A stretch of 64,000 nt of DNA from a virus: the IMG/VR virus record IMGVR_UViG_3300042502_000959, positions 1 to 64,000 of that record; one strand, given 5' to 3'. A program made the position numbers and the translations under genes. This document shows, piece after piece, positions 8,001-63,334 of the stretch. The notes beneath the pieces are model-generated. The model did not search any database, was not told the origin of the DNA, and saw nothing but the letters and a program-made list of their open reading frames with translations. The first letter of the stretch is position 1. Every line of letters begins with the position of its first letter.

Positions 8001-11000
8001 GAAAAAGCAAAAACAAGTGCTACCGCAAAACAAGCTTCTGTAATTAACAAAGAAACAAAAGCTACAGAAAAAGCAACAAAAGAAAAAGTTGCAGCTACAA
8101 AGGCAGTAAAAGAAAACAAAAAAGAAACAGTCAAAGAGACTAAGGCAAAGCAAAAGCTGGCAACCCCTGCTGGTCCAGGACAGTCTCAAAGAATTACAGC
8201 TAGAGAAACAAAAGCTGGCACACGTTACTACTCTGGAAACAAATTAGTTGCAGACCAAAAAGCTGGACAAACAACCTATAACAGACAGCAGGGGGCTGCA
8301 AAGGGTGTAGAGACAAGAAGGGCTAATGCTGCACTAAGGTCCCAGGCTCCTCAAGCTCAGCAAAGAGGCTCTGGTGGTGGAAGGGCTGGTATGGTTGGCA
8401 TGGTGGCTTCTGGAGCCGTAATGGGTGGGTCAATGTTGCCTGGTGCCGCAGGAAAAGTTGCACAAGACCTAATGATGCCAATCATGGCACTTTCAATGAT
8501 TTTGCCAATGTTGCCAGGCCCAGTAGCTATTGCAGTTGCTGCTATTTCTGGATTGGCCATGGCTGCCTTTGCTCTAAAGGGTGCATTTGACACCGCTCAA
8601 AAAGAGGCGATAGAATTAACAGAAACTTTGGGCTCTGGTTCAAAAGCAATTCTTGCTTATGCAGAATTTGCAGGAACGGCATCAGCTGGAGAAGTTATGG
8701 ATAAGCAAAGAGCCAATAACGCTTCTCCCTTTTCTGTTCAGCAGGGTAAAACAACATTTGGAGAATCTTTTGTAACTAGCGAACAGGGTAAGGGTATGCT
8801 AGAGTCACTAAGAAAGAGTGTTGCAACTTCTGGGTCTTCTGCAACACAAGCTCAACTTGTAAATCAGCTAGGAACTGCCGTTGCCTCTGGGGCATTAAAT
8901 GAAGCACAAGCAAGAAGCATTGCAGCTAGTATTGGAAAAGAATTAGGGAATCAATCTTTTGGCATTAACGTTAATGCAAAGCTCATTGAAATATTCGGTC
9001 CAAATGGAGAAAATCTTATAAACGAGCCCCTTGAGGTTAGAGTAAAAATGATAGAGCAAACTCAGGATCAGGTTGGAGCTACTATAAAAGCTGGCCAGGT
9101 TCGAAGCTCTACTGCAACTCCTTTAGTTAGCGAAGGACTTGCGTTATCCGCAGCCCTAGGGGCTACTGGCTTAATGGCAAACGCTGTTCCAGTAGTCGGA
9201 CAAGTTGCCAGTGGAATACTTCTTGCATCGTCTGCAGCAGTCCTTTTAGGAACTGGTATTGCAGCTGGAGTAGACAGAATGGCAAAGCTGGGAGAAGTCT
9301 CTGGTACCAATGTTGCCATGGGAATGATTGCTATGCAGCAGCAGCAAGAAATGGTAGACTCTCTAGATCTAGAATATCAGAAACGAATTGCCAATGCCGT
9401 TGCAGCTGGGGACGTGGCAAGAGCAGAAGAGCTTACAACACAGCATATACGAGACAGGGAAGCCCTTCTTATCAAGAATGCGGAAACAACTCAAATGGTT
9501 CTTGACAACTTTGCTAAGCAAGACGTGTTTTTTGGACAAGGTGCTTATATGGATGCAGCCAAGAAGGCTGTTGATGTGGCTTACGCAGACGATCCCGTTA
9601 AGGGACAGATTGCTAAGGGTGCTACGGGACAAATAGGCAGTGCAGCCTTAGACCAAACTCAAAAGTACCAGATGACGCTCATGCTTGCAAGCAAGGAGCT
9701 AGACCCAATGGTTGCTACTCAGCTACTATCTAGTTTTGGTAATGATGGCGAACAGTTGACGAAGGTCCTTAATATCATGACCAACATCGGATCCGCTGAT
9801 GGAAATCGTGCAATCGCATTAATGAATGCGTTTGTTGATAAAGATGGCGAGGCTTTGCCAGATCAACAAAAAACATTTATTGCAAATATAGAGTCTAAAA
9901 CTCCAGCACAAGCTCAAAAAGCCTTGGCCATGTTTGAAGAAGTGGCAAAGCTGGGTGGAGCTAACGTTCTTGAAGCTAGCGTAATTATGCAATTCTACAA
10001 TAAGAATCCACAAGCACAGAAAAAAATGGAAGACATGATAGAGCAAATAAACTCTTATGGGGGAGAGTTGACCATGGACTTTGTTCAAAATCTAGTTGGA
10101 GAAGCACAGTTTGAAGCCTTTAAACAAAACCAAGCTTATTTCGAAAGTCTGGACAATGAACAAAGAAAAGACTATGTTTCTGCATTTGTTAATACCATGG
10201 AGTTGCGTGGTGATAAGGATATGCAAGATGCTTGGAGAGCATGGCAGAAAACACTACCTGCAGATCAAAAGGCTAGGGCCTTTGAAGACTTTGCAACTGT
10301 TACTGCAGTAAGAGTTACTGAGGCTGGGAAAGACGCATCGGCGGTAGACATAGAACAAGAAGACACTAGCGGAGGCGGTGGCGGAGGACCATCTGCATCC
10401 CCACTAGACGACCTCTTGAAAAAACTTAGAGATATTCGTAAAAACCAAATTGGTGTAACCAAGGGCTTTGAAGCATCAGCTAACGCAATCAATAAGTTGT
10501 TTGGAGGCGGAGCTGGAATCAATCTTTTCAGCGGTATTGAAAATGACATGAGACGACTAGGGGCTGGAGAAGACCTAATCAGCCTTATAGCTGGAATGGA
10601 TCCAGAAGAGTTTGAAAAGAAAAAGAATACCCTATTTAATTTTGACAAGCAAACTGGAGAAATTATAGGATTTAAAAATCAGTTAAAGAATATTGGAAAA
10701 GCTCTTTCTGCAATCGCTATTGGTCAATATGTTAACCAGCAGCAGAAACAGGCTCAAGAGTCAAAGAATCAGGTATTAGCATTTAACCAGTTAAGGTCGT
10801 CTGGATATTCTGTTGCAGAAGCGTATGAAGCAATTCAGGATGCAGCGCTTGCCGCAGGCATAGTTGCTGGAGATTACACCCAACAACAAATAGCTGAGAT
10901 GCTTGCATTACAGAGAGCAACTGCAGAAGCAGCAAAGCAATTTGAAAGGCTAACTCCAGAAGGAATCCAACAGGTTTTTGATGAAGGCTTTAATAAGGCA

Positions 11001-12482: not shown

Positions 12483-13195
12483 TGGCAACTAATGCATACA
12501 TGACAAATAGGAAAAAGTATAGTCGTCCGCAAGCAATGCTTTGGGCAAACAATCCAGGTAATGCTGTTGGTGGGTTCTATATTCCGTCGGGATTTGAAGT
12601 TGGACAAACTAGGCCAACAACTGCAACAGAAGAAGAGTTGCTTAATGAGTTCTTAATTTTATCAGACGATAATCGATCGGCTTTGCAGTTTAACTCGCTA
12701 AGAATTGAAAAAAAGGAAAGAATGATAAATGGTAGGATGAGGTCATACCATGTTGCAGATAAGATAGAGTTGTCTACTTCTTGGAGCATGCTCCCATCTA
12801 GATCATTTTCTGACTTTCCAGGATTTGATGAGTATGGAAGACAGCAAGAGTTAGTAACCTCTATAGACCATGATAGTAATCCCATAACGCCAAATCAAAC
12901 TATTCAGCTTAGTGGATCACCCCTATATAAAGATCAGCAATACACCTCTGACGGCGGAGCTGGCGGGTTGGAAATACTTGATTGGTATACCAACTACAAG
13001 GGCCCTTTTTATGTTTATCTTGCCTATGATAAATATACAGAATTTTCTGACCAAGACACACTAAAGTATTCTAGGTTGGGCCAGTATAATGAAATTCTTG
13101 AAATGTATATTTCTAGCTTTACTTACTCAGTTGAAAAACGTGGGGGATCAAACCACGATTTATGGAACATAAGCGTAAGCCTAGAAGAGGTTTAA
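12482..13195 (+). CDS. Putative distal tail protein
   Basis: This 237-residue protein starts at the stop of the tape measure (TAATG overlap) and ends directly before the hub gene. The slot between tape measure and hub normally holds the distal tail (Dit-like) protein that caps the tube. The sequence has many aromatic residues and beta character, with a compact C-terminal domain (about 165-237). Assignment is by gene order. Confidence 0.6.
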   Translation: MATNAYMTNRKKYSRPQAMLWANNPGNAVGGFYIPSGFEVGQTRPTTATEEELLNEFLILSDDNRSALQFNSLRIEKKERMINGRMRSYHVADKIELSTSWSMLPSRSFSDFPGFDEYGRQQELVTSIDHDSNPITPNQTIQLSGSPLYKDQQYTSDGGAGGLEILDWYTNYKGPFYVYLAYDKYTEFSDQDTLKYSRLGQYNEILEMYISSFTYSVEKRGGSNHDLWNISVSLEEV

Positions 13196-16100
13196 ATGTT
13201 TGAAAGCAAAGAGCTAAACGATCATCTTAGTACTTCTTCTACAATAAAGTCTCGTGCTGCAGTTATTGCAGAATGGAACATGAATTTCTTTGAAAATATT
13301 GCAGATATTGGAAACTACAGATACCGTCCACTTCTTGGAATTGCTCAAAAATACGGATCAATACCAAACATCTATGACCCAAAAGACCTAGGAAACTTTT
13401 ACACTGGCGCAACAGATGCTGATGTTTTAGTAGATGGTGGTTTTGAAGAGGATGGCCAAACTCCAGTTGTTTTTAAACCTAAAAAAGAAAAAGAAAAACT
13501 TTTATTTTCTCTAGAAGAGTGTTTTGGAAAGTTTAGGCCAAGGTCTGGAATCAACAAACTTAGATACGGAATTACTGGAAAATACCTACATCACAGTAAT
13601 GTTGACATGTTTAATCGGCCAAGATACTATATGCCAGACAAGAATGATACTTTTAAATACTGGACCTCATATAGGACTGAGGATGGAAAAGAGTACGGAA
13701 TTGCAAACAATACTCTTAATGGCAATTACCACGTAGAAGATGTAGCCCCATATGTTGTATATAAAGAAGAAATTCCAGTAAACAGGATTGTTGTAAAGAC
13801 GCAAACCAATGTTGGAAATGTTGATCTTGGACCATTCTCCAACTCATCTGGAATATTTGCAGATCCATTTTTTGGAGAGGAAAATAAAACAACCCCAGTA
13901 AAATGGAAAATCCAATATCTAAAAAACAATATTTGGCTAGACGCAATTTCCTTTAATAAAAACTCTGTACGCTATAATGGCGATGCCATAATCGGAACAG
14001 ATGGATACTTAGAAATTGGGTATGGACTTATTGTTCCAGATAGTTTTAGGTCAAACTTTATAAATAATGGAATCCTAGCCTCCACAACTATGCTTCCAAC
14101 AGAAAATGAAAATGGTCAGGCCTACCTTGTAAAACAAAACACGAATGACCTTGGGCGATACTATATTTGGAAAGACAGTGGCTACCTTGAATTTCACCCA
14201 GAATATGGTTGGTACGTAGTAGATGAAAACGTAGACCAGCTTACAAACTTTGTAACAGATACAACAAGCCCTAAGAAATACAATACAGCTCAGGCTGGTA
14301 TTTTAGACTATGAAGAGTTTTTGTTTATTTCAGGAATCAGGGTAGTTGTTGAAACAATGAATCGTTTTGGAGCAACCCTAGACCTAATAGAACTTTCTCC
14401 AAGACTAACAGTAGATCTAACTGAAAAAACAGTAGCATACTCAGTAACTAAAAATGCTTCAGATCTTGGGGTAAGTGGTTTGCCAGTTGGTCAGCTACTT
14501 GCATCTAATGGAGAGCTGTCCCTCTTTGACTATGACCAGTCTTTTAATCAAAATAATATTTGGAATCCAAAAACTGGAACTGGAAGCATTATTGCAAAAT
14601 ACATAAACAAAAATATTCAAATAAAGTTTTATGAGATAATCTCAGATGTTACTGTCATAGATAATGAAGAAAATAAGATTAAAAAAAGTTTTTATGTTCC
14701 AATAAAAACATTGTATTCAGAATCTTTTCCACAGTCAAACCTAAAGAGTAGAGAGCTTAAGCTATCACTAAGAGACCTTTTCTTCTATTTTGAGTCTCAG
14801 TCAGCCCCAGAGCTTTTGATTCCAAACGCATCCTTGTCATACGCACTTGCAACAATTTTTGACAGCATAGGTTTTAGCAACTACTCCTTTAAAAGACTTG
14901 ACGGAGAAAGCGATCCAATTATTCCATACTTCTTTGTTTCTCCAGATAAAACTATAGCAGAGGTATTAAACGATCTAGCCATAGCAACACAGACCGCAAT
15001 GTATTTTGACGAGTACAACAACTTTGTTATGATGAGCAAAAACTACTCCTTGCCAACTGAAGAAGAAAGGCAAACAGATGTAATTTTGCTGGGATCAAAT
15101 ACTGATCCAAAGTTAACCACAACAGAACAAATTCGTGATGCTCAACCAAGACAATTAGAGAACATTATAGACATAGCCTCTCAGGATAACAACATCTATA
15201 ATGATGGAAAAATAAGCTATATTGCAAGATACATCCAGAAATCTATGGGCTCAATCAAGCAGGCCTATGTAGCAGACAAAAATATTTCTTGGATATATAA
15301 GCCAGCCCTGCTTTGGGAAGTATCTGGCACAGAAAATCTAAAGCCAACAAATGGACAAACAGCTACTGGAAATAAGTATGCCCTAGCAGCTATACCACTA
15401 AATTCAGATTTAAATGATCAAGTACCAGCAGTTCTAAATCATGAACTTGTTAATAATATTATTGATTTTGGCGATGGCATTTTGTACATTGGAAGATATA
15501 ACGGATACTTTTATTCTAATGGAGAGGTCGTTAGATACGACGCAGTAGAATACAATGTTTCGGTTTTGCCATCAAGCGTGGTAGACTCTAATTTTACTGG
15601 AGGAAACGTTTGGATATCTAGTCCACAAGAATACGAAGACTATTTTTCTAAACTTTCTTTTAACGGAAAGATTTACCCAACTGGCCGTGCAAGAATTTAT
15701 GCAGAGCCAAACTATGAAACTTTTGATGGAATAACAAGAATGTCTAATGGCTCAGTAGCCAAGCACGGTAGGGGGCAGTTTGGAACAACAGTTGTAAATC
15801 ACACAGCTGGCCTAAACCCATACTGGACAAATAATGAAAATGTTTATGGCTGTAAAATGAAGTCTGCTTATCTATTTGGAAACCTTGCTTTTGAAGGTGA
15901 CACCAGTGCTGGTACAGCTGGAGTAAGCAAATCTCTAGCTACAAAAGCCTCAAGATCTAGCGTAATTAAAAACTATCTTTCTTTTTCTCATAATGAAGAA
16001 ACCTCTAATAAGAATAAACTCTCTTCAACTTCAGAAACTGTTCAGGCTTCGGCTCTTGTATTTAACGGTCCGTCTTTTTCATCACAAGAAACCCCCATTG

Positions 16101-37301: not shown

Positions 37302-39347
37302 ATGTCCGATTTTTTCTCCTTCAGACTTCCAGTAGATTTTGTTGAAAAATACACTACTGTAGAGGCACCATTTGGTTTCAAAGACGCAGGAGAAAACTCC
37401 ATTGGAGAAATTACTTTTGCTAGAACTTACTCTCGCATCAAAGAAGATGGAACCAAAGAACGCTGGTATGAAGTTTGTAGGAGAGTTATCGAGGGTATGT
37501 ATTCTGTCCAGAAAAATCATGCAAAAGACAACCGCCTTCCATGGAATGATTACAAGGCACAGAAGTCTGCACAAGAAGCTTTTGACCGCATGTTCAATCT
37601 AAAGTGGACCCCTCCAGGACGTGGCATGTGGACTTTTGGAACCCCACTAACAATGGAGAAGAGAAACTCTGCAGCACTACAGAACTGTGCTGTTGTGTCT
37701 ACAAAAGATTTGGATAAGAACGACCCAGGAGCTTTGTTTGCTTGGGTAATGGATGCTCTAATGCTCGGCATTGGTGTCGGCTTTGATACCCTTGGACAAG
37801 ATAAGGCGTTTCCAATTCACGCACCAACTGAGCCAAAGGTGGTCTACGAAATTCCAGACACTCGTGAAGGCTGGGTAGAGGCAACAAGACTACTTCTTAA
37901 CTCATTCTTAAGACCAAACCAAAACATTCAGGAGCTGGACTACTCTCTTATTAGACCGCTGGGTGCACCAATCAAGGGCTTTGGAGGAACTGCTTCTGGA
38001 CCAGCACCACTAAAGCAGCTTCACGAACAAATTAGCAAAGTAATTGGAGGACGTGCTGGAGAAACCCTAGACTCTCGTGCAATTGTAGACATCATTAATC
38101 TTATTGGAACTTGTGTTGTTTCTGGAAACGTTCGTCGTTCTGCCACATTAGCTTTGGGAGTAGAGGGAGACGACGACTTCTTAAACTTAAAAAATGCAGA
38201 AGCCTTCCCAGAGCGTAACAGCTATGACTCAAACAATCCAGGCTGGGCATGGATGAGCAACAACTCTATCTCTGCTACTGTTGGCATGGATTACTCAAAG
38301 TATGTAGATCGTATTGTAGATAACGGAGAGCCAGGATTTATTTGGTTGGATGTTGCTCGTAACTACGGACGTTTGGCTGACCAGCCAGACGGTGCAGACT
38401 ACCGTGTAGTAGGCTTTAATCCGTGTGCAGAACAGCCACTAGAGTCCTATGAGCTCTGCACCCTAGTTGAAGTACATCTAAACCGTCACGAGTCCAAGGA
38501 GGACTTCCTACGGACCCTGAAGTTTGCTTACCTATATGGTAAGACCGTTACTTTGTTGCCAACTCACTGGCAACAGACCAACGGTATCATGCAAAGAAAC
38601 CGTAGAATTGGAACATCCCTAACTGGCATTGCATCATTTGCGGATGAGAATGGTCTTCCAACTGTTCGCAACTGGATGGATGAGGGGTATAACAAGATCC
38701 GTTTCTATGACAAGAAGTATTCTGAATGGTTATGTGTTCGTGAATCAATTCGTGTGACTACCGTAAAGCCATCTGGATCAGTATCCTTGCTGTCAGGTGC
38801 AACCCCTGGAGTTCACTGGGGACCAGGTGGGGCCTTCTACCTACGTGCCATTCGTTTTGGAAACACAGACCCAATGCTACACCTATTTAGGGCAGCTGGA
38901 TACAGGTGTGAGGATGATCTGGTATCAGCAAATACTACAGTTGTATACTTCCCAATTAAGTCTGGGCAGAAACGTAGCGAGAAGCAGGTCTCTTTGTTTG
39001 AAAAGATGTCTCTTGCTGCAACTGCCCAAGAGTATTGGTCGGACAACGGGGTATCAGTAACCCTATCCTTTGACAAAGAAACAGAAAGGCAGCACGTATC
39101 ATCTGTTCTTAATATGTATGAGGGCAAGCTAAAGGCTGTATCATTCTTGCCAATGGGCAACAAGGTGTATCCACAGCAACCATACACAGAGATTACAGAA
39201 GAAGAGTATGACTACTTTATTGGTCGCATTGCCAAGATTGACTTCTCTGCCATTTATGACGGGGTAGACAATTTAGAAGCACTTGGAGAATCGTACTGTA
39301 CAACAGACTACTGCGAGATCAAGATTCCAGACAAGAGGGCAAAGTAA
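37302..39347 (+). CDS. nrdJ: Class II (adenosylcobalamin-dependent) ribonucleotide reductase
   Basis: This 681-residue single-chain reductase makes dNTPs using adenosylcobalamin as radical source. Visible landmarks are the redox Cys in QNCAVV (Cys129), FNPCAEQP with the thiyl-radical Cys375 and Glu377, Cys386 in CTLVEV, and a C-terminal Cys pair (about 666 and 671) for re-reduction. There is no separate R2 gene nearby, and the size and motifs match the monomeric triphosphate reductase type. A thioredoxin gene follows by one base. The window also carries a cobalamin adenosyltransferase (61186-61773). Confidence 0.93.
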   Translation: MSDFFSFRLPVDFVEKYTTVEAPFGFKDAGENSIGEITFARTYSRIKEDGTKERWYEVCRRVIEGMYSVQKNHAKDNRLPWNDYKAQKSAQEAFDRMFNLKWTPPGRGMWTFGTPLTMEKRNSAALQNCAVVSTKDLDKNDPGALFAWVMDALMLGIGVGFDTLGQDKAFPIHAPTEPKVVYEIPDTREGWVEATRLLLNSFLRPNQNIQELDYSLIRPLGAPIKGFGGTASGPAPLKQLHEQISKVIGGRAGETLDSRAIVDIINLIGTCVVSGNVRRSATLALGVEGDDDFLNLKNAEAFPERNSYDSNNPGWAWMSNNSISATVGMDYSKYVDRIVDNGEPGFIWLDVARNYGRLADQPDGADYRVVGFNPCAEQPLESYELCTLVEVHLNRHESKEDFLRTLKFAYLYGKTVTLLPTHWQQTNGIMQRNRRIGTSLTGIASFADENGLPTVRNWMDEGYNKIRFYDKKYSEWLCVRESIRVTTVKPSGSVSLLSGATPGVHWGPGGAFYLRAIRFGNTDPMLHLFRAAGYRCEDDLVSANTTVVYFPIKSGQKRSEKQVSLFEKMSLAATAQEYWSDNGVSVTLSFDKETERQHVSSVLNMYEGKLKAVSFLPMGNKVYPQQPYTEITEEEYDYFIGRIAKIDFSAIYDGVDNLEALGESYCTTDYCEIKIPDKRAK

Positions 39348-42017: not shown

Positions 42018-42548
42018 ATGACCTGTATAGCCGCTTTGAAGGCTAACGGTAAGGTGTACATGGCTGGTGATCGTGGTGCATCCACTGAAGACAGCATCAT
42101 GCATATATCTAAACCTAAGATTAAAATTGTTGGTCCATATCTAATTGGATATGCTGGAACCATGGAAGGGCAAAAGCTTCAGTATAGCTTTGATCCACCC
42201 AGACCACATCCAGAAGAAGACCTAGATATTTTTATGCACACAACTTTTCTTAAGTACCTTAAAGAGTTTTATGACGAATGGTGGATTGAAACCTCTAAAG
42301 ATGCGGAACTAGAAATGCTAGTCTCAATTGGAGATAAGCTATATGAGCACAGCTCTTCAGATATGTCCATGAATGAATTTTCTTCACACTTCTTATCTAT
42401 TGGATCTGGCTCACCATTTGCAATGGGGTATATGTCAGCAGTGTCTTCTACCAAAATACCACCAGAAAAAATGGTAGAGGGTGCAGTAAAGACTGCAATT
42501 AAATTTTCACCAACTTGCTCTGGCACAGTTGACATTCTTTCTACGTAG
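42018..42548 (+). CDS. Proteasome/HslV-like Ntn peptidase
   Basis: This 176-residue protein begins Met-Thr-Cys. After Met removal the catalytic set falls exactly on Thr1, Asp17 (in AGDRGAS) and Lys33 (in KPKIK), as in proteasome beta subunits and HslV. The hallmark IGSGSPFAMG lies near 127-136 and CSGTVDI near the end; the usual Asp166 appears replaced by Pro. Length matches HslV (about 174) with no propeptide. No HslU, Mpa or Clp-type ATPase is seen in the window, so any unfoldase would come from the host. A consensus promoter drives it. Confidence 0.82.
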   Translation: MTCIAALKANGKVYMAGDRGASTEDSIMHISKPKIKIVGPYLIGYAGTMEGQKLQYSFDPPRPHPEEDLDIFMHTTFLKYLKEFYDEWWIETSKDAELEMLVSIGDKLYEHSSSDMSMNEFSSHFLSIGSGSPFAMGYMSAVSSTKIPPEKMVEGAVKTAIKFSPTCSGTVDILST

Positions 42549-47404: not shown

Positions 47405-47639
47405 AACCAAAGAGGCAAAAAAAGAATATCAACTTAATGCATCAGACCGTTGCGACTCTTGTGGAGCACAAGCCTATATCTGGGCTAATGGTTTAAACGG
47501 AGACTTAATGTTTTGTGCACATCACTATGAAGGAATTATGGCAAATGCTGTGGGGTATGACGGGATGATGAAATTTGCAATAGAAGTTGTTGACGAGCGT
47601 GAAAAACTTATTGAAAATAGATTGAAAGTAGATGAGTAG
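47394..47639 (+). CDS. DUF7455-like actinobacterial zinc protein
   Basis: This 81-residue protein contains SDRCDSCGAQAYIWANGLNG and FCAHHYEG, a Cys/His site like that of a small actinobacterial family (DUF7455). The GTG at 47394 has a TGGAGGT site 7 bases upstream, better than ATG 47379 or the long frame from 47295, and slightly overlaps the dioxygenase. It is a host marker more than a known function. Confidence 0.65.
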   Translation: MIGETKEAKKEYQLNASDRCDSCGAQAYIWANGLNGDLMFCAHHYEGIMANAVGYDGMMKFAIEVVDEREKLIENRLKVDE

Positions 47640-47641
47640 CC

Positions 47642-48070
47642 ATGGACTATCTTTTGGGATTTTTAGTGGCAATTGGAATGCTTCTATTTTTTAGGTTTGT
47701 GGCTCCCAAAGTAATATCTAAAGACTTTGGCAACAAGGTACGTTATAGCCAAAGCCATATACACGAAATGATAAAATATAACATTCCAGAATCAATGTTT
47801 TATCCTATAAAAAGACCTAGCCAATCCTCCCGCCATGAAAAAAGCATTAATCTTAGGGTTCTTTTTATAGAAAAAGAAGCTTATTGGATTAAAGAGAATG
47901 CCCTTTTTATTGCGGAACAAGAAGACGGCATCGTACAAGAGGGCACAGCTAGGAGAGTTGACACAATGGGTATGAATAGGGTACAATTAGAGAAGTTAAT
48001 CTACATCGTAGATACTCTAAACGAAGGAACCGACAATGATCGTGGCTATACAGGGAACAAAGGCTTTTGA
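47642..48070 (+). CDS. Single-pass membrane protein
   Basis: This 142-residue protein has an N-terminal membrane segment (about 3-23) and a basic/acidic cytoplasmic domain (about 25-142). Its start lies two bases after the preceding stop. No domain recognised. Confidence 0.5.
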   Translation: MDYLLGFLVAIGMLLFFRFVAPKVISKDFGNKVRYSQSHIHEMIKYNIPESMFYPIKRPSQSSRHEKSINLRVLFIEKEAYWIKENALFIAEQEDGIVQEGTARRVDTMGMNRVQLEKLIYIVDTLNEGTDNDRGYTGNKGF

Positions 48071-48386
48071 CCTATACCCTGTATTTTTGCGAGCCATGGG
48101 TGTAGCCCTTTCAAATCTACCAGATGAAGATAAAGAGTTTTACATTTATTCTGCAGGGCCTTCACAAATAAATTCTATGTGTTCAGAATTTTCTAATATT
48201 TCTGAAAGAGGTCTCAGGGCACGTGGAATTAAGATAAAGATGATAAAGGTACCGCCAAGTTGGATAAAAGAAAACATACATAGCGTTAATTATTTTGCGT
48301 TCTTTAGTAAGCCTAAAGAGCCCGTATCAACAATAGTGTCATATGCAGAAAGCAAAGATGCTAAAGTTGGAATTTACCGCTATTAA
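48036..48386 (+). CDS. Conserved-looking alpha/beta protein, possible SLOG-type fold
   Basis: This 116-residue protein begins with a strand and Gly loop (MIVAIQGTKAF) followed by alternating helices and strands (FYIYSAGPSQINS, IKMIKVPPSW, VGIYRY). The layout recalls nucleotide-binding Rossmann-like folds of the SLOG/YspA type. A GAAGGA site precedes the ATG. The gene overlaps the previous one by 35 bases. The fold is only a suggestion. Confidence 0.5.
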   Translation: MIVAIQGTKAFDLYPVFLRAMGVALSNLPDEDKEFYIYSAGPSQINSMCSEFSNISERGLRARGIKIKMIKVPPSWIKENIHSVNYFAFFSKPKEPVSTIVSYAESKDAKVGIYRY

Positions 48387-48405
48387 ACAAAAGAGAGAAA
48401 AGATC

Positions 48406-48627
48406 ATGGTCATCAAAACAATTGAAGAAATGGAAAAGTTTGTTTCATCAAACAAAAATTTTTCTTGGGACGGTTGGACTGTTTTAAAAACATATAAGTC
48501 TGATAAGGCTAGAACATCTTCTAGTGGCGTCTGCATTAGCGGAGACTGGTTTATCCAGGAAAGGTTCGCTCCTGGTATTGATGGCTGGGTTATTCCAGAA
48601 AGTATAGTTCCCAATGGGAAGGCATGA
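48406..48627 (+). CDS. Hypothetical small protein
   Basis: This 73-residue protein has an N-terminal helix and Trp-rich strands (FSWDGWTVLKTY, GDWFIQERF). ATG 48406 is preferred over 48343 because it avoids the overlap with the preceding gene. It overlaps the WhiB gene by 14 bases, so it may be its coupled partner. Confidence 0.5.
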   Translation: MVIKTIEEMEKFVSSNKNFSWDGWTVLKTYKSDKARTSSSGVCISGDWFIQERFAPGIDGWVIPESIVPNGKA

Positions 48628-48901
48628 GTGGAAAGATGAAGGCTCGTGCAAGGGCTACGACACAAATCTATTCTTTGATAAATATGAAGAAGATATTGCC
48701 CTTCGTCCTGCGATTGACAAACTTTGTGCTGGTTGTCCAGTATCAAGGCAGTGCTTTGCTGTCGGAGTTTCTCAAAAAGAATGGGGAGTCTGGGGAGGAA
48801 TATTTCTTGAAAATGGAAAAATATCTAGAGAATTTGCCAAGCATAGAAGCAAAGAACAATGGGCCGAAACTTGGAAGAGCTTAACGATGGAGGATAACTA
48901 A
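48614..48901 (+). CDS. whiB: WhiB-family Fe-S transcription factor
   Basis: This 95-residue protein has four Cys at 12, 38, 41 and 47, with the family spacing CxxCxxxxxC, and the GVWGG turn at 58-62, then a basic tail with a SREFAKHRSKEQW helix. WhiB proteins bind a 4Fe-4S cluster and the main sigma factor in actinobacteria; phage versions can redirect host transcription. The family is confined to actinobacteria and their phages, which identifies the host phylum. Confidence 0.93.
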   Translation: MGRHEWKDEGSCKGYDTNLFFDKYEEDIALRPAIDKLCAGCPVSRQCFAVGVSQKEWGVWGGIFLENGKISREFAKHRSKEQWAETWKSLTMEDN

Positions 48902-49125
48902 TGGAGCTGTGGTCATGGATACTTGCTGCTATTGGTGTATCTGGAATTTATTTTGTTGGCAGAAAAACTATTTGGGGCTGGCTTGTCCTATTATTTAATG
49001 AGGCTATTTGGATTGCCTATGCATTGGTTACCGAACAGTATGGCTTTATTGTTTCTGCCGTCGCTTATGCAGCGGTATACATCAGATCTTATCTACACTG
49101 GAAAGAGGATTCACATGTACACTGA
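48901..49125 (+). CDS. Small three-segment membrane protein
   Basis: This 74-residue protein has three hydrophobic stretches (about 3-20, 23-43, 46-64) with Gly/Trp/Tyr patterns (GRKTIWGW, NEAIWIAYAL) like those of small phage membrane proteins loosely related to PnuC. It starts at the WhiB stop. Function unknown. Confidence 0.6.
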   Translation: MELWSWILAAIGVSGIYFVGRKTIWGWLVLLFNEAIWIAYALVTEQYGFIVSAVAYAAVYIRSYLHWKEDSHVH

Positions 49126-49354
49126 TGCGATGAAAAGGGCATTTCATTCTTTGGCTCACTATGCACCAAAAGGATTTTACCTACAAGTAATTGATAATGA
49201 ACACTTCATTAGCGTTAAAGCACAAGAAAAAATGTTTATGCTTTTAACTGGAGAAGGAAAGAAGCAAGCTGTAGAGTATATGATCAGAGTTAAAAAGGCA
49301 CTAGAAGACAACGGTGCAATCGTTTTACTTGTTAGAGAGGGTGGAGAAGAATGA
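49115..49354 (+). CDS. Hypothetical helical protein
   Basis: This 79-residue protein starts at ATG 49115 with an AGAGG site 7 bases upstream; a longer frame from 48923 is only a shadow of the membrane gene. It has two helices and central strands (FYLQVIDNEHFISV). It overlaps both neighbours. Function unknown. Confidence 0.5.
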   Translation: MYTDAMKRAFHSLAHYAPKGFYLQVIDNEHFISVKAQEKMFMLLTGEGKKQAVEYMIRVKKALEDNGAIVLLVREGGEE

Positions 49355-49782
49355 TTCTAGATTTTATTGCTTTTCTATTTTTAGTGGTAGTAATCGTTGC
49401 TTTAATTATTATTGCAATAAATCTAAAAATAAAGAATAGAAGGCTGGCTGTTGAACTTCTTCAGTCAACCATAGATCACAACATAGCATTAACAATGTTT
49501 GCAGAAGAACTTAAAGAAAAACAAAATGTTTCAGTGGAAAAAACTGATGGGTTCTTAAAGTTTATTTCTGAGTCAAGGGATCTTGCCTTTCAATATATAG
49601 AAAAGGTACAGGAGTCTGTTGCTAAATTTAAGACTAAGATGGACCCAGAAATAAAATATATGCTTTCCTATGGAGCAGCCGCTGGAGATAATCTTTACCT
49701 AAAATCATTTAGGAAAATTGAAAAAGCGTATGCAGAGCTACTTCATGAAGCTCTGCCACCAGAAGAAAATAAAAAGAATTAA
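49351..49782 (+). CDS. Membrane-anchored coiled-coil protein
   Basis: This 143-residue protein has an N-terminal membrane segment (about 4-25) followed by helical, charged sequence (about 30-140). Its start overlaps the previous stop (ATGA). The build resembles i-spanin-like proteins, but no lipoprotein partner was found. Confidence 0.5.
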   Translation: MILDFIAFLFLVVVIVALIIIAINLKIKNRRLAVELLQSTIDHNIALTMFAEELKEKQNVSVEKTDGFLKFISESRDLAFQYIEKVQESVAKFKTKMDPEIKYMLSYGAAAGDNLYLKSFRKIEKAYAELLHEALPPEENKKN

Positions 49783-58660: not shown

Positions 58661-58770
58661 ACCCCTTTGAGATGGATGTGTCTATCTCAAGGGTTTATAA
58701 CTTAATAGGGAAACCACCCGCTAACGCTCAACGACCGAGTACTAACTACCAAGGAAAGGTAGGTCGCCAA
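58661..58770 (+). promoter_or_regulatory. Structured 5' leader, possible c-di-AMP-type riboswitch
   Basis: The leader has a strong hairpin (CCCTTTGAGAT with ATCTCAAGGG, one bulge), then TAGGGAAACCACC, then CCGAGTACTAACTACC, and a last hairpin CTACC-AAGGAAA-GGTAG whose 3' arm reaches toward the start codon. TAGGGAAACC and CCGA...CTAACT...CC recall conserved blocks of the ydaO/yuaA c-di-AMP riboswitch, which is known upstream of cell-wall hydrolases in actinobacteria. The match is partial and unproved. Confidence 0.4.
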
Positions 58771-59529
58771 ATGAAAAGAAAAAGGTTCATAGCAATTGGT
58801 ATGATTGCACTAGTAATGACAACTGGTACTGGAGTAGCTTTTGCAGCTATGCTAGACGCAAGTGAGTCATCGAACAAAGAACTACCAGTAACACAAGTAA
58901 CAAAGCCAACACCATTAATTGATTCTCCAGTAACAACAGAAGTGGTTCTTTCGGGACCAGTTCGTTCAATTGAAGTTTCATCAGGCCCAGTGCTTAGGTC
59001 AGACGCTCCAAAGGTTGGCTCGCATGATTGGATGGCTCAGGTAAAAGCTGCAAAAGATAAGCTCAAGGCTCAGGCTGAGAAAAAGCAAAATGAGCTAGAG
59101 TCAAAGATTGCTAGGCTAGAGAAAATTGCTGCCGACACCAAAGCCCTGAATGAGACTCTTGTCTTAGTTAAAAAACAAATTGGCATCACCCCTTGGGTTT
59201 TTCAGGGATCTGACACACGCTCCTGGGATTGCTCTGGTCTGGTCAAATGGACTTACGCTCAGCTTGGAATAGACCTGTATCACAGTGCCACATGGCAAAG
59301 ATATTGGGGTGCAATTGTGACTGAGCCTAAAATTGGAGACCTAGTGTCATTCAATTACCAAAACCATTCAAGTGCCTACCACATTGGAATCTATATAGGC
59401 CCTGACGAGATGATTCATGCTGGTGGTAAGCCAGGGGACAGGACTGAGATAATTTCTATAAGCGACTGGGCAAAAGATAACTCTAATAGTGATGTTATTT
59501 ATACAAGAATAATTGAAACAAATAATTAA
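58771..59529 (+). CDS. Secreted NlpC/P60 peptidase
   Basis: This 252-residue protein has a signal peptide (KRKRF then a hydrophobic core to about residue 28), a coiled-coil stalk (about 90-130) and an NlpC/P60 domain with WDCSGLVKW (Cys154), YHIGIYIG (His near 204) and MIHAGGKPG. The layout is RipA-like. It would cut stem peptides of peptidoglycan from outside. ATG 58771 starts the signal peptide; the longer frame from 58672 would translate the structured leader. Confidence 0.85.
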   Translation: MKRKRFIAIGMIALVMTTGTGVAFAAMLDASESSNKELPVTQVTKPTPLIDSPVTTEVVLSGPVRSIEVSSGPVLRSDAPKVGSHDWMAQVKAAKDKLKAQAEKKQNELESKIARLEKIAADTKALNETLVLVKKQIGITPWVFQGSDTRSWDCSGLVKWTYAQLGIDLYHSATWQRYWGAIVTEPKIGDLVSFNYQNHSSAYHIGIYIGPDEMIHAGGKPGDRTEIISISDWAKDNSNSDVIYTRIIETNN

Positions 59530-60310: not shown

Positions 60311-60339
60311 TTGACATCCATCCCCATATCCTGTACAAT
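60311..60339 (+). promoter_or_regulatory. Near-consensus promoter of the cobalamin operon (TTGACA-N17-TACAAT)
   Basis: TTGACA (60311-60316), 17 bases and TACAAT (60334-60339), followed by six bases and ATG 60346. It is both a strong sigma-70 promoter and leaderless. Confidence 0.8.
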
Positions 60340-60345
60340 ATAGGT

Positions 60346-60561
60346 ATGACAAATACTGATGATGGAATCGACGATTATTTTAACAATCATTGGCTTAACA
60401 ACCAATCCATTAACCCACAAGATCGGGTTTCTATGCATATCCAGAATATTGCCAAGGTAAAGCAAGAAGAGCAAGAACGCATCATTCAATTGCTTGAAGA
60501 TAATCTTGGTAACATGGACCTAAACGATTTACTAAAACTAATTAAGGAAGAAACAAAATGA
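60346..60561 (+). CDS. Small acidic helical protein, first in the cobalamin operon
   Basis: This 71-residue protein is helical and acidic (VKQEEQERIIQLLEDNLGNMDLNDLLKLI), with no recognised motif. It is leaderless and overlaps the next gene by four bases, so it leads the operon. Confidence 0.55.
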   Translation: MTNTDDGIDDYFNNHWLNNQSINPQDRVSMHIQNIAKVKQEEQERIIQLLEDNLGNMDLNDLLKLIKEETK

Positions 60562-61019
60562 ATAAGGCAACTATAGCAATTGGAGCAGTTCTGGGTATTC
60601 TGACAACTGGAATTGTATTTCATAATGTCAATGCGGACTGTGTTAATGTCTATGTAGACTATGGGACACTTAAAAATAATGAAAAGATTGAAGAGTGTAT
60701 TGCGGTAAATGGAAAAACTAATGCCTTGGATCTATTGTCTACCGCTGGGTTTACCACAGAAGGAACTGTAGAATACGGCGAAGCAATCCTTTGTAGGTTA
60801 AACAATCTTCCAGATGCCACAGCAGAGACTTGCGAGAGTATGCCGCCAGCCGAGTCTTACTGGGGTGTCCTTGTAAAAGAACATCAGGTTGTTCCAGTTC
60901 CCCTTGGAATCACTGGGGCATGGGGATGGGCCCAAACAGGCATTGATGGTGTATACTTGAATCCTGGAGATTCGCTAGGGCTAGTCTTTGCAGATAACGG
61001 AGAAGTAAGATTTCCATGA
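60558..61019 (+). CDS. Secreted DUF4430 (transcobalamin C-terminal-like) protein
   Basis: This 153-residue protein has a signal peptide (to about NVNA, residue 26) and a domain with VNVYVDYGTL, TNALDLLSTAGF, SYWGVLV and the end GVYLNPGDSLGLVF. That series matches the DUF4430 pattern, the family named for its likeness to the C-terminal cobalamin-contacting domain of transcobalamin. It may bind corrinoids at the cell surface. It overlaps both neighbours. Confidence 0.72.
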   Translation: MNKATIAIGAVLGILTTGIVFHNVNADCVNVYVDYGTLKNNEKIEECIAVNGKTNALDLLSTAGFTTEGTVEYGEAILCRLNNLPDATAETCESMPPAESYWGVLVKEHQVVPVPLGITGAWGWAQTGIDGVYLNPGDSLGLVFADNGEVRFP

Positions 61020-61186
61020 AAACAATAACAGATAAGTTTGATGCAATTATTGAATATCAAGACTTTAAGAAGCAAAGCTGGATAGAGGCTACCACGCCCT
61101 ACCTCCAGGTTGCTTTTAGCCTTCTTGCACTATTTGCATCTAACGATCTGTTGGTTACAATCTGGCGTTCGATGACGGGACACTAA
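61016..61186 (+). CDS. Small single-pass membrane protein in the cobalamin operon
   Basis: This 56-residue ORF overlaps the DUF4430 gene (ATGA) and the adenosyltransferase start (TAATG). It has a charged N-terminal half and one membrane segment (about 29-50). The double overlap supports a real gene. It might anchor or pass on the corrinoid; no family is recognised. Confidence 0.6.
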   Translation: MKTITDKFDAIIEYQDFKKQSWIEATTPYLQVAFSLLALFASNDLLVTIWRSMTGH

Positions 61187-61773
61187 TGGTAAACCTAACT
61201 CGAATTTATACTAAGACTGGTGATGATGGCACTACCTCTTTGGGGGACATGAGTCGTACATCAAAGAATGATCCAAGACTTGAGGCTTTTGCCACGGTAG
61301 ACGAAGCCAACTCTGTCATCGGAGTAGCCATTCTACATGTAGTTAACCAAGACGTTAGGAATATCCTTAATCAGATACAGAATGACCTGTTTGATGTAGG
61401 AGCAGACTTATGTACACCAGTGATAGATAATCCTCCTGTAGAGCCTCTGAGAGTTACTGAGGGCCAAGTTAGCAACCTTGAGTCCCAGATAGACAGATTC
61501 AATGCAGAGCTGGATTCTCTCAGGTCTTTTGTTATTCCTGGAGGAACTGCCTCATCTGCCAACCTGCATGTTGCTAGGACTGTAGCTCGTCGTGCAGAAA
61601 GACTTACCTGGAATGCTATTCACCAATTTGGCGAGGGTGTAAGTAAACTAACCGCAAAATATTTAAACAGACTATCAGACCTACTATTTGTATTAGCTAG
61701 GTATGAGAATAAGTCCGTAGGAGACGTCTTATGGGTTCCAGGAAAAAATACATTAGGAGAAACAAATGGCTAA
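61186..61773 (+). CDS. pduO: PduO-type cob(I)alamin adenosyltransferase
   Basis: This 195-residue all-helical enzyme moves the adenosyl group of ATP to cob(I)alamin. It begins RIYTKTGDDGTTSLGD (ATP loop), continues FATVDEANSVIG, and has FVIPGGTASSANLHVARTVARRAER (about 115-140), the Arg/Glu signature of the PduO family. Length is normal. In this genome the product, adenosylcobalamin, is the cofactor of the class II RNR. Confidence 0.93.
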   Translation: MVNLTRIYTKTGDDGTTSLGDMSRTSKNDPRLEAFATVDEANSVIGVAILHVVNQDVRNILNQIQNDLFDVGADLCTPVIDNPPVEPLRVTEGQVSNLESQIDRFNAELDSLRSFVIPGGTASSANLHVARTVARRAERLTWNAIHQFGEGVSKLTAKYLNRLSDLLFVLARYENKSVGDVLWVPGKNTLGETNG

Positions 61774-61864
61774 AATGGCAAGCCTTCATGCCGAAGGACT
61801 AACAGACGAAGATCTAGAATCTGCAGAAATTGCTGAAATTCTAGAAGAGATATTTGTAGACTAA
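61766..61864 (+). CDS. Very small acidic protein
   Basis: This 32-residue ORF has an AGGAG site at 61754-61758 and overlaps the adenosyltransferase by 8 bases. It is acidic and helical (DLESAEIAEILEEIFVD). The ribosome site and place support it. Confidence 0.5.
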   Translation: MAKMASLHAEGLTDEDLESAEIAEILEEIFVD

Positions 61865-61865
61865 T

Positions 61866-62030
61866 ATGGATAAGCAAATCATTAAAGACAGTATAAAGAT
61901 TGGACTATTGATTGTAGCTATCCTATTTATATTTGTAGTAGCCTTACCTTTTATTGTAAGTGATGAGGCAGATAGGCTAATAATTGAGTATGGCTTAGAT
62001 CAGTGGGTTCGAGACCTACTTGGAAGATAG
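61866..62030 (+). CDS. Small single-pass membrane protein
   Basis: This 54-residue ORF starts one base after the preceding stop and has a membrane segment (about 10-31). Its end overlaps the minus-strand peroxidase by 15 bases. It ends the operon. Confidence 0.5.
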   Translation: MDKQIIKDSIKIGLLIVAILFIFVVALPFIVSDEADRLIIEYGLDQWVRDLLGR

Positions 62031-62816
62031 AGCTGGATTTACGATAGATCTCTTACCAGCTATTAGCTCTTCGATATCCTGGCAAATGATAGCCCACTCT
62101 TCTTCAAAGATTTTTTTAGAACGACCAGGCCCAATGCCAACCTTGCCACCAGAATCAGCTGTTGCCTCTTTAACAGTTTTTTCAACATCAATATTTAAAG
62201 TTGTGCACTGATAATGCTTGTGAACATATCCGTCTTTGTCAATTAGGTACTTCTCAAAGTTGCCACCCATCTGGTCTCCATTATAGAACCCCATGTTTAG
62301 CCAGTAAGAATAATACTTATCCTTAAACATTGTTTCTGGGTCAAGGCCGCTTTCTTCTATCTTACTTTTTGCAGTCATTTGATGATCTTTGATTGTCAGG
62401 TAAAGTTCGTGTGGATCACCATTAGGTTGGTTTAGACCATTGTGTCCTGGCTCTACGTTGAGCTGCTTGCTGACACCGCCACTAGGGATAGAAGAAACCA
62501 TTTCAGAAAATTGGAAAGTAGTTCCATAAACATCTTTGCCATAGTTTGCGGAATCTAGTCCACAGGTAATTCCTTGAGACCACTTGCCATAGGTGATACC
62601 TGGCCCACAGTAATCATTTGTTGGAATAGCAATAATTTGAAAGTATTGGCCACCGTACTTTTCCTGTAGCCATTGCAAAACTTCCATTTGGTTGGCATTT
62701 CCGCATCCGACAGTAGTGTTGACCACAATAGCGGCCTTGCCCTTAAACTGCTGTAAAAAGCCTGACTCTCCGTCTGCAGAATTTAGCTCAATATCATAGA
62801 TAGATTTTAATGTCAT
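62016..62816 (-). CDS. Glutathione peroxidase-like protein
   Basis: This 266-residue protein has the GPx layout: a first strand SIYDIELNSADG, FKGKAAIVVNTTVGCGNANQMEVLQWL with Cys38 in the peroxidatic place, and NFEKYLIDKDGYV. It is longer than usual GPx (about 160-180), with a middle insert and a C-terminal extension. A strong AGGAGG site precedes the ATG on the minus strand. It may remove peroxide during infection; the electron donor could be the phage thioredoxin. Confidence 0.78.
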   Translation of the reverse strand: MTLKSIYDIELNSADGESGFLQQFKGKAAIVVNTTVGCGNANQMEVLQWLQEKYGGQYFQIIAIPTNDYCGPGITYGKWSQGITCGLDSANYGKDVYGTTFQFSEMVSSIPSGGVSKQLNVEPGHNGLNQPNGDPHELYLTIKDHQMTAKSKIEESGLDPETMFKDKYYSYWLNMGFYNGDQMGGNFEKYLIDKDGYVHKHYQCTTLNIDVEKTVKEATADSGGKVGIGPGRSKKIFEEEWAIICQDIEELIAGKRSIVNPALSSK

Positions 62817-62873: not shown

Positions 62874-62902
62874 TTGACAATGGCTCTGAAGTATAGTATA
62901 AT
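62874..62902 (+). promoter_or_regulatory. Perfect sigma-70 promoter (TTGACA-N17-TATAAT)
   Basis: TTGACA (62874-62879), a 17-base spacer and TATAAT (62897-62902), with a leader of about 15 bases, drives the DUF2061 pair. Confidence 0.85.
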
Positions 62903-62924: not shown

Positions 62925-63122
62925 ATGGAAAGCACTAAAAGAAGTTTAGTCAAGACCCTTAGCTGGGAGTTTGTTCACCTTGTTATTATAGCAGGAGTAA
63001 TCTACATAATCACAGGAGAATGGGAGTATGCCACTCTGGGAGCACTTGTATACATTGCCTGGGAAGCTGTAGCATACTTCATCCACGAGCGTATCTGGTC
63101 TAAGTTCGTAAAGATCAAGTAA
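62925..63122 (+). CDS. DUF2061 membrane protein, first copy
   Basis: This 65-residue protein has KRSLVKTLSWEFVH, two membrane segments and YFIHERIWSKF, the DUF2061 pattern. It lies in tandem with a diverged copy. Function unknown; a consensus promoter suggests early, strong expression. Confidence 0.78.
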   Translation: MESTKRSLVKTLSWEFVHLVIIAGVIYIITGEWEYATLGALVYIAWEAVAYFIHERIWSKFVKIK

Positions 63123-63124
63123 TA

Positions 63125-63334
63125 GTGGCCAGCAAAAAACGTTCGTTAGCTAAGTCCATAACCTGGAGACTCATAGCTATATTTGTGACATTTGCAGTTG
63201 GGTTTGTCATGACTAACAGCTGGGAGTTTGCGGCTTCCCTATCTCTAGTATCAAATCTTATTAACTTTGTACTGTATTACATCCATGAAAGATTTTGGCT
63301 TAAGGTTGAGTGGGGAAAATCAAGGGTATCTTAA
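63125..63334 (+). CDS. DUF2061 membrane protein, second copy
   Basis: This 69-residue protein has KKRSLAKSITWRLIA and YYIHERFWLKVEWG, more like typical DUF2061 proteins. The start is GTG, two bases after the first copy. The two may form a heteromeric membrane complex. Confidence 0.82.
   Translation: MASKKRSLAKSITWRLIAIFVTFAVGFVMTNSWEFAASLSLVSNLINFVLYYIHERFWLKVEWGKSRVS

Follow-up and report, generated by a model that had tools for sequence, protein, structure and literature searches.

Phages are known to carry B12-dependent ribonucleotide reductases (RNRs), and the locus described here raises the question whether a phage may also encode the means to acquire B12 and to convert it into the coenzyme that its reductase consumes. 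The DNA analyzed, hereafter called the window, is 64,000 nucleotides in length and represents the first 64 kb of a 67,034-base IMG/VR virus record, the phage nature of which is shown by genes for a DNA polymerase, a DnaB-like helicase, a terminase, tail proteins and peptidoglycan hydrolases. The record appears to be that of a freshwater phage which uses B12 for the production of DNA building blocks and which carries its own kit for capture and activation of this vitamin. The relevant features of the window are as follows.

37302-39347, + strand: monomeric RTPR-type class II RNR, 681 aa, presumed consumer of the cofactor
58672-59529: peptidoglycan-hydrolase-like gene, shortly 5' of the operon
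60311-60339, + strand: promoter-like site TTGACA-17 nt-TACAAT, 11 of 12 consensus positions
60346-60561, + strand: ORF1, 71 aa, no assigned function, ATGA overlap with the next gene, outside the conserved core
60558-61019, + strand: capture protein, 153 aa, transcobalamin-beta-like predicted fold
61016-61186, + strand: one-helix membrane protein, 56 aa, conserved C-terminal WR(S)xTGH
61186-61773, + strand: PduO-type ATP:cob(I)alamin adenosyltransferase, 195 aa (PF01923, TIGR00636)
61766-61864, + strand: ORF5, 32 aa, doubtful, only in near-identical phages
61866-62030, + strand: ORF6, 54 aa, predicted one-helix membrane protein, non-conserved, only in near-identical phages

The operon, the class II reductase and their distribution in phages

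The initial annotation had described six tightly overlapping genes behind a near-consensus promoter. Six closely packed ORFs are indeed present on the + strand (60346-62030), the first four being joined by ATGA or TAATG overlaps, but the unit that is conserved in related phages consists of only three of them (60558-61773), namely those encoding the capture protein, the one-helix protein and PduO; for ORF1 a single distant relative was found, in the related stretch L003. The promoter is likewise present, though sites of this kind are common: eight sites matching at least 9 of 12 positions were found in the 3.5 kb scanned, which is AT-rich, versus 9.4 expected in shuffled sequences, and the site at 60311-60339 therefore proves nothing by itself. 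Since the ATG of ORF1 (60346) is positioned only 6 nt past the -10 hexamer of this site, the operon transcript is possibly leaderless. An Rfam search upstream of the operon at E<=1 returned no meaningful element and no riboswitch, and a search of the whole window at gathering thresholds returned tRNAs only.

Several other features of the window were recorded. A gene on the - strand (62016-62816), convergent with the end of the operon and also present in the near-identical phages L001 and L002, encodes a protein that resembles glutathione peroxidase in its N-terminal stretch (PF00255, 3.7e-9). A sigma-70-type promoter sequence at 62874-62902, matching the consensus at 12 of 12 positions with a 17-nt spacer, precedes two ORFs for small membrane-protein-like products (62925-63334), and positions 42018-42548 give a weak match to a proteasome subunit (PF00227, 23.6 bits versus a cut-off of 22.4).

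The presence of a PduO-type adenosyltransferase in the operon was borne out by profile searches, the product of 61186-61773 matching PF01923 over its full length (4e-61; 206.5 bits versus a cut-off of 24) and TIGR00636 (1.2e-54; 184.6 bits versus 108), and on these matches it is certainly a member of the PduO family. The closest solved structure is that of the corrinoid adenosyltransferase 2g2d/6wgs (2.5e-64). Residues D39, F115, R131, R135 and N161, which we take to be the equivalents of D35, F112, R128, R132 and N156 of the Lactobacillus reuteri enzyme, are invariant across 27 relatives. The closest cellular relatives (approximately 76% identity) belong to the Nanopelagicales (acI), including Ca. 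Planktophila, where pduO lies near ATP synthase genes in a neighbourhood from which the capture gene is absent. The phage host is probably actinobacterial, and B12-auxotrophic Nanopelagicales are its likely hosts. Among the 50,697 phage records of INPHARED, 15 PduO matches were obtained, all below 60% identity and many in unannotated records, and no convincing relative of the capture protein was found.

A class II RNR had also been proposed at 37302-39347, and this assignment holds: the protein matches phrog_367 (1.2e-142) and scores 334 bits with TIGR02505, slightly below the cut-off of 340, while its sole PDB match is the Lactobacillus leichmannii RTPR (1l1l), alignment with which places the active-site NPC..E..C residues (Cys/Asn/Glu) and the C-terminal Cys pair. 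On the basis of these residues and matches it is classed as an adenosylcobalamin-dependent RNR of the RTPR type.

Searches of IMG/VR retrieved 226 related stretches with PduO and 211 with the 153-aa protein, of which the 80 best per query were inspected. Within these sets, 56 of the 62 distinct phage capture proteins are followed, at their stop codon, by a gene for a one-helix protein ending in WR...GH, and three more capture loci carry C-terminal variants of it (WRLLTCPC in L034, WRVVTCNC in L032 and WRFYNGHY plus a tail in L255). PduO is encoded within approximately 1 kb of the capture gene in 55 of the 60 phage versions with sufficient flanking sequence, and a class II RNR within approximately 3.2 kb upstream in 26 of 48. 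The order capture-TM-PduO is kept even though the capture proteins share only about 45% and the PduOs about 50% identity. The window RNR is located 21 kb from the cassette, and in many relatives the RNR is adjacent to it; in L012, nrdJ (5388-7430), capture (7427-7879), TM (7870-8001) and pduO (7977-8564) each overlap the next. An nrdJ-capture-TM arrangement without PduO is found in L239, L246-L249 and L251. In two related phages, a tmRNA gene is present a few kb from the cassette (L029, 10983-11303; L028, 11013-11359).

The proposal that the operon serves a class II RNR implies that its occurrence in related phages should depend on RNR class. A class II RNR was found on 30 of 50 PduO-bearing viral contigs and on all 11 of those of at least 90 kb, these lineages being partly non-independent, whereas a class I large subunit was found on none of the 50, the class I/II barrel profile PF02867 matching only the class II genes. 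The cassette thus goes with class II, and the pattern that the initial annotation had named as refuting, an operon present regardless of RNR class, was not seen, but the converse does not hold: among 33 contigs whose RNR is at least 83% identical to that of the window, the capture protein is encoded on two and PduO on one, and six of the 31 cassette-free contigs are 91-116 kb in length. The RNRs adjacent to a cassette are typically about 62%, and in some cases about 81%, identical to the window RNR. Because most of the closest relatives of this RNR occur without it, the cassette is an optional add-on which the enzyme does not require. Two class II RNR frames, in G034 (13135-15078) and G048 (47436-49370), contain one or two in-frame stops but match strongly in all other respects (631 bits); the stops may reflect an error of assembly, an intron or decay.

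The capture protein and its putative one-helix partner

The alignment of the capture family defines an N-terminal signal or anchor helix followed by an extracytoplasmic domain, in which C28, C47, C79, C92, W102 and W122 are invariant and which has a fixed end consisting of F or W followed by P. The initial annotation had called this a signal-peptide DUF4430 protein. The helix is there, and a transcobalamin-beta-like fold is predicted (see below), but the family assignment failed: PF14478 (DUF4430) gave no match at E<=10 for the window protein or any of its 35 relatives, the family profile aligned to one DUF4430 protein (L167) with a score at the level of shuffled sequences, and the DUF4430 label is not confirmed. 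Pfam searches of 35 family members at E<=10 produced single matches at chance level only, and a PDB sequence search with the family profile produced only weak, unrelated ones, so that kinship with DUF4430 or transcobalamin by sequence is unsupported by any profile. DUF4430 itself was not detected by Pfam in 29 acI/actinobacterial genomes and is present in only 4 of 297 Actinomycetes genomes.

AlphaFold models led by two members of the family reached pLDDT values of 83.5 and 86.1 and exceeded 90 across the greater part of the domain. When these were compared to the PDB by Foldseek, the first model matched 3u7z of Ruminococcus gnavus, the beta domain of 5no0 and transcobalamins across ranks 1-12, and the second model ranked 5no0 first; transcobalamin folds and 3u7z together occupy nearly all of ranks 1-12 in both searches. 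The matches have a probability of approximately 1.0, but E values of only 0.004-0.015 and query TM-scores of 0.40-0.49. A library of viral structures contained no convincing match. Judged from these models, the 153-aa protein is transcobalamin-beta-like in fold and not a member of DUF4430.

The small membrane protein encoded next (61016-61186) corresponds to what had been noticed as a 56-residue membrane protein: it has one predicted helix and a conserved WR(S)xTGH end, and its gene is kept beside the capture gene in relatives, making it the putative partner of the capture protein. Of 58 distinct close phage versions, 57 terminate in His, and Cys takes this position in divergent phage versions and in some host versions. 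Interchange of His and Cys is what a metal ligand would show, and it is possible that this terminal residue donates a ligand to cobalt. The mean charge is +2.6 on the N side of the helix versus +0.8 on the other side, and the C-terminus is therefore probably outside, that is, in an N-in/C-out topology which would place it beside the capture domain.

Chromosomal homologues in Nanopelagicales

A search of genome contigs with the capture family returned nothing, probably because the patterns used contained the phage-type WGW motif. By six-frame profile search of 151 Nanopelagicales genomes, chromosomal homologues were located in six (E approximately 1e-47 to 1e-50). All six are directly preceded by an AdoCbl/cobalamin riboswitch scoring above the gathering threshold, and all six are directly followed by a one-helix gene whose product ends in WRxWGGH(Y) or WRxWGAC. 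Considering that a Nanopelagicales genome contains only one, rarely two, riboswitches of the cobalamin class, their position ahead of the pair is not a matter of chance. PduO is not part of these host loci.

The riboswitch locus is flanked by an aldo-keto reductase gene (PF00248) and gcvT (GCV_T). Depending on the lineage, this slot is occupied by an ECF module, by BtuFCD or by the capture+TM pair, riboswitch-led BtuFCD or ECF systems being those of most Nanopelagicales. Examples are as follows.

L422, 4577-7227: riboswitch-btuF-btuC-btuD (PF01497, PF01032, ABC)
L356, 4704-8416: riboswitch-secreted protein-CbiQ/EcfT-EcfAA'-S component (PF02361, PF00005, PF07155)
L177, 8179-8876: riboswitch-led capture+TM pair

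An ECF S component is absent from all six capture-bearing genomes, one of which (G458) encodes a CbiQ-family protein. In another of the host genomes, the complete genome G223 (1,238,108 bases), the class II enzyme is the sole RNR detected and PduO is encoded as well, while no homologue of BtuF, BtuC/FecCD, EcfS, EcfT, CobU, CobS or MetE was detected at E<=1e-3 and a CbiQ-family protein is absent. Import of B12 by a BacA-like protein was considered for this genome and rejected, its two full-length ABC half-transporters resembling flippases/exporters of the PglK/MsbA type. Because G223 is devoid of any recognizable B12 transporter and the pair resides at the transporter locus, the capture+TM pair is, by absence of recognizable alternatives, the leading candidate for the means by which such cells obtain B12.

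In the phylogenetic tree, host and phage capture sequences fall on opposite sides of a single branch (SH-aLRT 94); this split gives no direction, and transfer from phage to host is not claimed.

Other riboswitch loci of these bacteria were noted. In G295 (L424, 3796-6956), class I nrdAB lies behind a second AdoCbl riboswitch, which suggests that the class I RNR is a B12-repressed backup to class II, and in G192 (L425, 5185-7563) an AdoCbl riboswitch precedes metE, encoding the B12-independent methionine synthase. No Pfam model matched the secreted 'YWGYFQ' protein encoded first in the ECF cobalamin operon of L356 (7883-8416). The C-terminal half of this protein can be aligned to the phage capture family (hhalign score of 36, versus at most 23 for shuffled columns), and the protein is possibly a rearranged relative of that family. 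A circular permutation between the two was not retained, since a permuted profile lengthened the alignment from 66 to approximately 100 columns without raising the score.

Proposed route of the corrinoid and relation to known systems

Taken together, the three core genes are likely to constitute a phage cobalamin capture-and-trapping cassette that feeds the class II RNR. From the computed identities of PduO and the RNR, the conservation of the operon, its co-occurrence with class II RNRs, the fold resemblance and the riboswitch control in hosts, we infer corrinoid binding, membrane passage, a role for the terminal His/Cys and a benefit to the phage. The anchored transcobalamin-beta-like protein and the one-helix protein, with its WR.xTGH end facing outward, would bind cobalamin or other corrinoids outside the cell, and the pair would deliver the corrinoid to the inside of the infected cell, acting either by itself as a small uptake unit or docked on a host permease. 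PduO would then adenosylate the incoming cob(I)alamin, by which it would be both trapped in the cell and made into coenzyme, and the resulting AdoCbl would be used by the monomeric class II RNR of the phage to supply dNTPs for its replication.

The strongest evidence for this cassette is provided by the host chromosomal pairs behind AdoCbl riboswitches. The initial annotation had already proposed that uptake and activation of corrinoid are aided by the phage to keep its own reductase working, and this proposal gains support from the adjacency of nrdJ in relatives and the co-occurrence with class II RNRs, from the riboswitch at six of six host loci and from the high ranks of transcobalamins in two fold searches. 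Counted against it are the lack of a riboswitch in the phage operon, the distance of 21 kb to the RNR in the window, the modest E values and TM-scores of the fold matches, the absence of a sequence profile linking the family to DUF4430 or transcobalamin, and the 31 of 33 contigs with close RNRs but no cassette.

As to how the corrinoid crosses the membrane, the capture and one-helix proteins could form a minimal, motor-less uptake system in which the C-terminal His/Cys would ligate cobalt and PduO would trap the vitamin, having spread among phages in linkage with nrdJ and acting as sole B12 importer, in place of BtuFCD or ECF, in some streamlined acI. This specific form is advanced tentatively, a single helix and an anchored domain being no obvious transporter. 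A serious alternative, itself plausible rather than probable, is that the pair only binds and concentrates cobalamin at the surface and hands it to BtuFCD or ECF systems of the host, after which PduO adenosylates it. The riboswitch-led BtuFCD or ECF systems of most Nanopelagicales, the small size of the one-helix protein for a permease and the ECF operon that starts with a secreted protein, the second half of which is alike to the phage family (36 versus at most 23), are in keeping with such a hand-over, whereas in G223, with its class II RNR only, the pair at the transporter site is the sole recognizable candidate for uptake. This alternative overlaps with the preferred explanation, where the passage step may be the pair's own or proceed via a permease.

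It is improbable that the surface proteins handle corrinoids for another purpose, such as sequestration of corrinoid or the blocking of superinfecting phages or competitors that use the B12 receptor of the host, while PduO acts as a separate metabolic enzyme. Phage surface proteins often serve in exclusion, and a peptidoglycan-hydrolase-like gene lies shortly upstream (58672-59529); however, the riboswitch-led host versions at the transporter locus point to acquisition, and the linkage of the operon to PduO and the RNR is strong. It is very unlikely that pduO is just one more auxiliary gene taken from the host, co-transcribed by chance with genes for unrelated small phage proteins upstream of it, the resemblance to Nanopelagicales PduO (about 76%) and the non-conserved ORF1, ORF5 and ORF6 being outweighed by a gene order kept at about 45% (capture) and 50% (PduO) identity and by the occurrence of the pair, without PduO, behind host riboswitches.

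If the cassette operates as proposed, phages of very abundant freshwater bacteria would scavenge B12, and their replication would be tied to the vitamin exchange of lakes. The unnamed protein pair would be a candidate B12 uptake system of bacteria in which none of the known B12 transporters searched for was found, and the fold of the capture protein would make it a possible relative, in prokaryotes, of the human B12 carriers. According to the initial annotation, a phage system with all these parts is not known to have been described, and in the part of the literature searched no described case was found of a phage that acquires and activates B12 by one system.

The individual components can be set against known systems. 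The phage PduO shares with 2g2d/6wgs full-length homology above curated cut-offs, and differs in being phage-encoded and linked to a capture pair. The capture protein has a predicted fold in common with the beta domain of transcobalamin and intrinsic factor (5no0, 5np4, 2bb5) and with R. gnavus 3u7z, but is devoid of a sequence-profile match to transcobalamin and of its alpha-barrel domain, and instead possesses four family-specific invariant Cys residues and a membrane anchor. According to a published description, acI bacteria are auxotrophic for cobalamin and possess ECF modules led by riboswitches (PMC5301498); the host capture pair uses the same genomic slot and riboswitch as these modules and BtuFCD, whereas the phage cassette and the six host loci are without ATPase, EcfT or S component. 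In BtuM, a Cys of a membrane protein is the axial cobalt ligand, and the adenosyltransferase BtuR has been proposed to trap the vitamin (PMC6072759). The likeness lies in a small protein for B12 uptake, which has no ABC motor dedicated to it, and in a co-localized adenosyltransferase, and the axial Cys compares with the conserved terminal His/Cys of the one-helix protein of phages and hosts; BtuM is, however, a multi-helix, S-component-like protein, while in the phage pair the membrane protein has a single helix and the extracytoplasmic domain is a protein apart, with no sequence link to BtuM seen.

The closest described arrangement is the nrdJ-cbrS-cbrT-pduO cluster of Lactobacillus delbrueckii, whose CbrT has been proven to serve as S component for B12, ECF-CbrT being a B12 transporter (PMC5997447). 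There, as in many related phages and in the same order, a class II RNR, genes for B12 acquisition and PduO are clustered. Pfam searches of the phage cassette revealed no S component, EcfT, FecCD permease or BtuF, and in place of the ECF S component of the Lactobacillus cluster the middle genes of the phage encode two proteins of unnamed families, one secreted and transcobalamin-beta-like, the other with a single helix.
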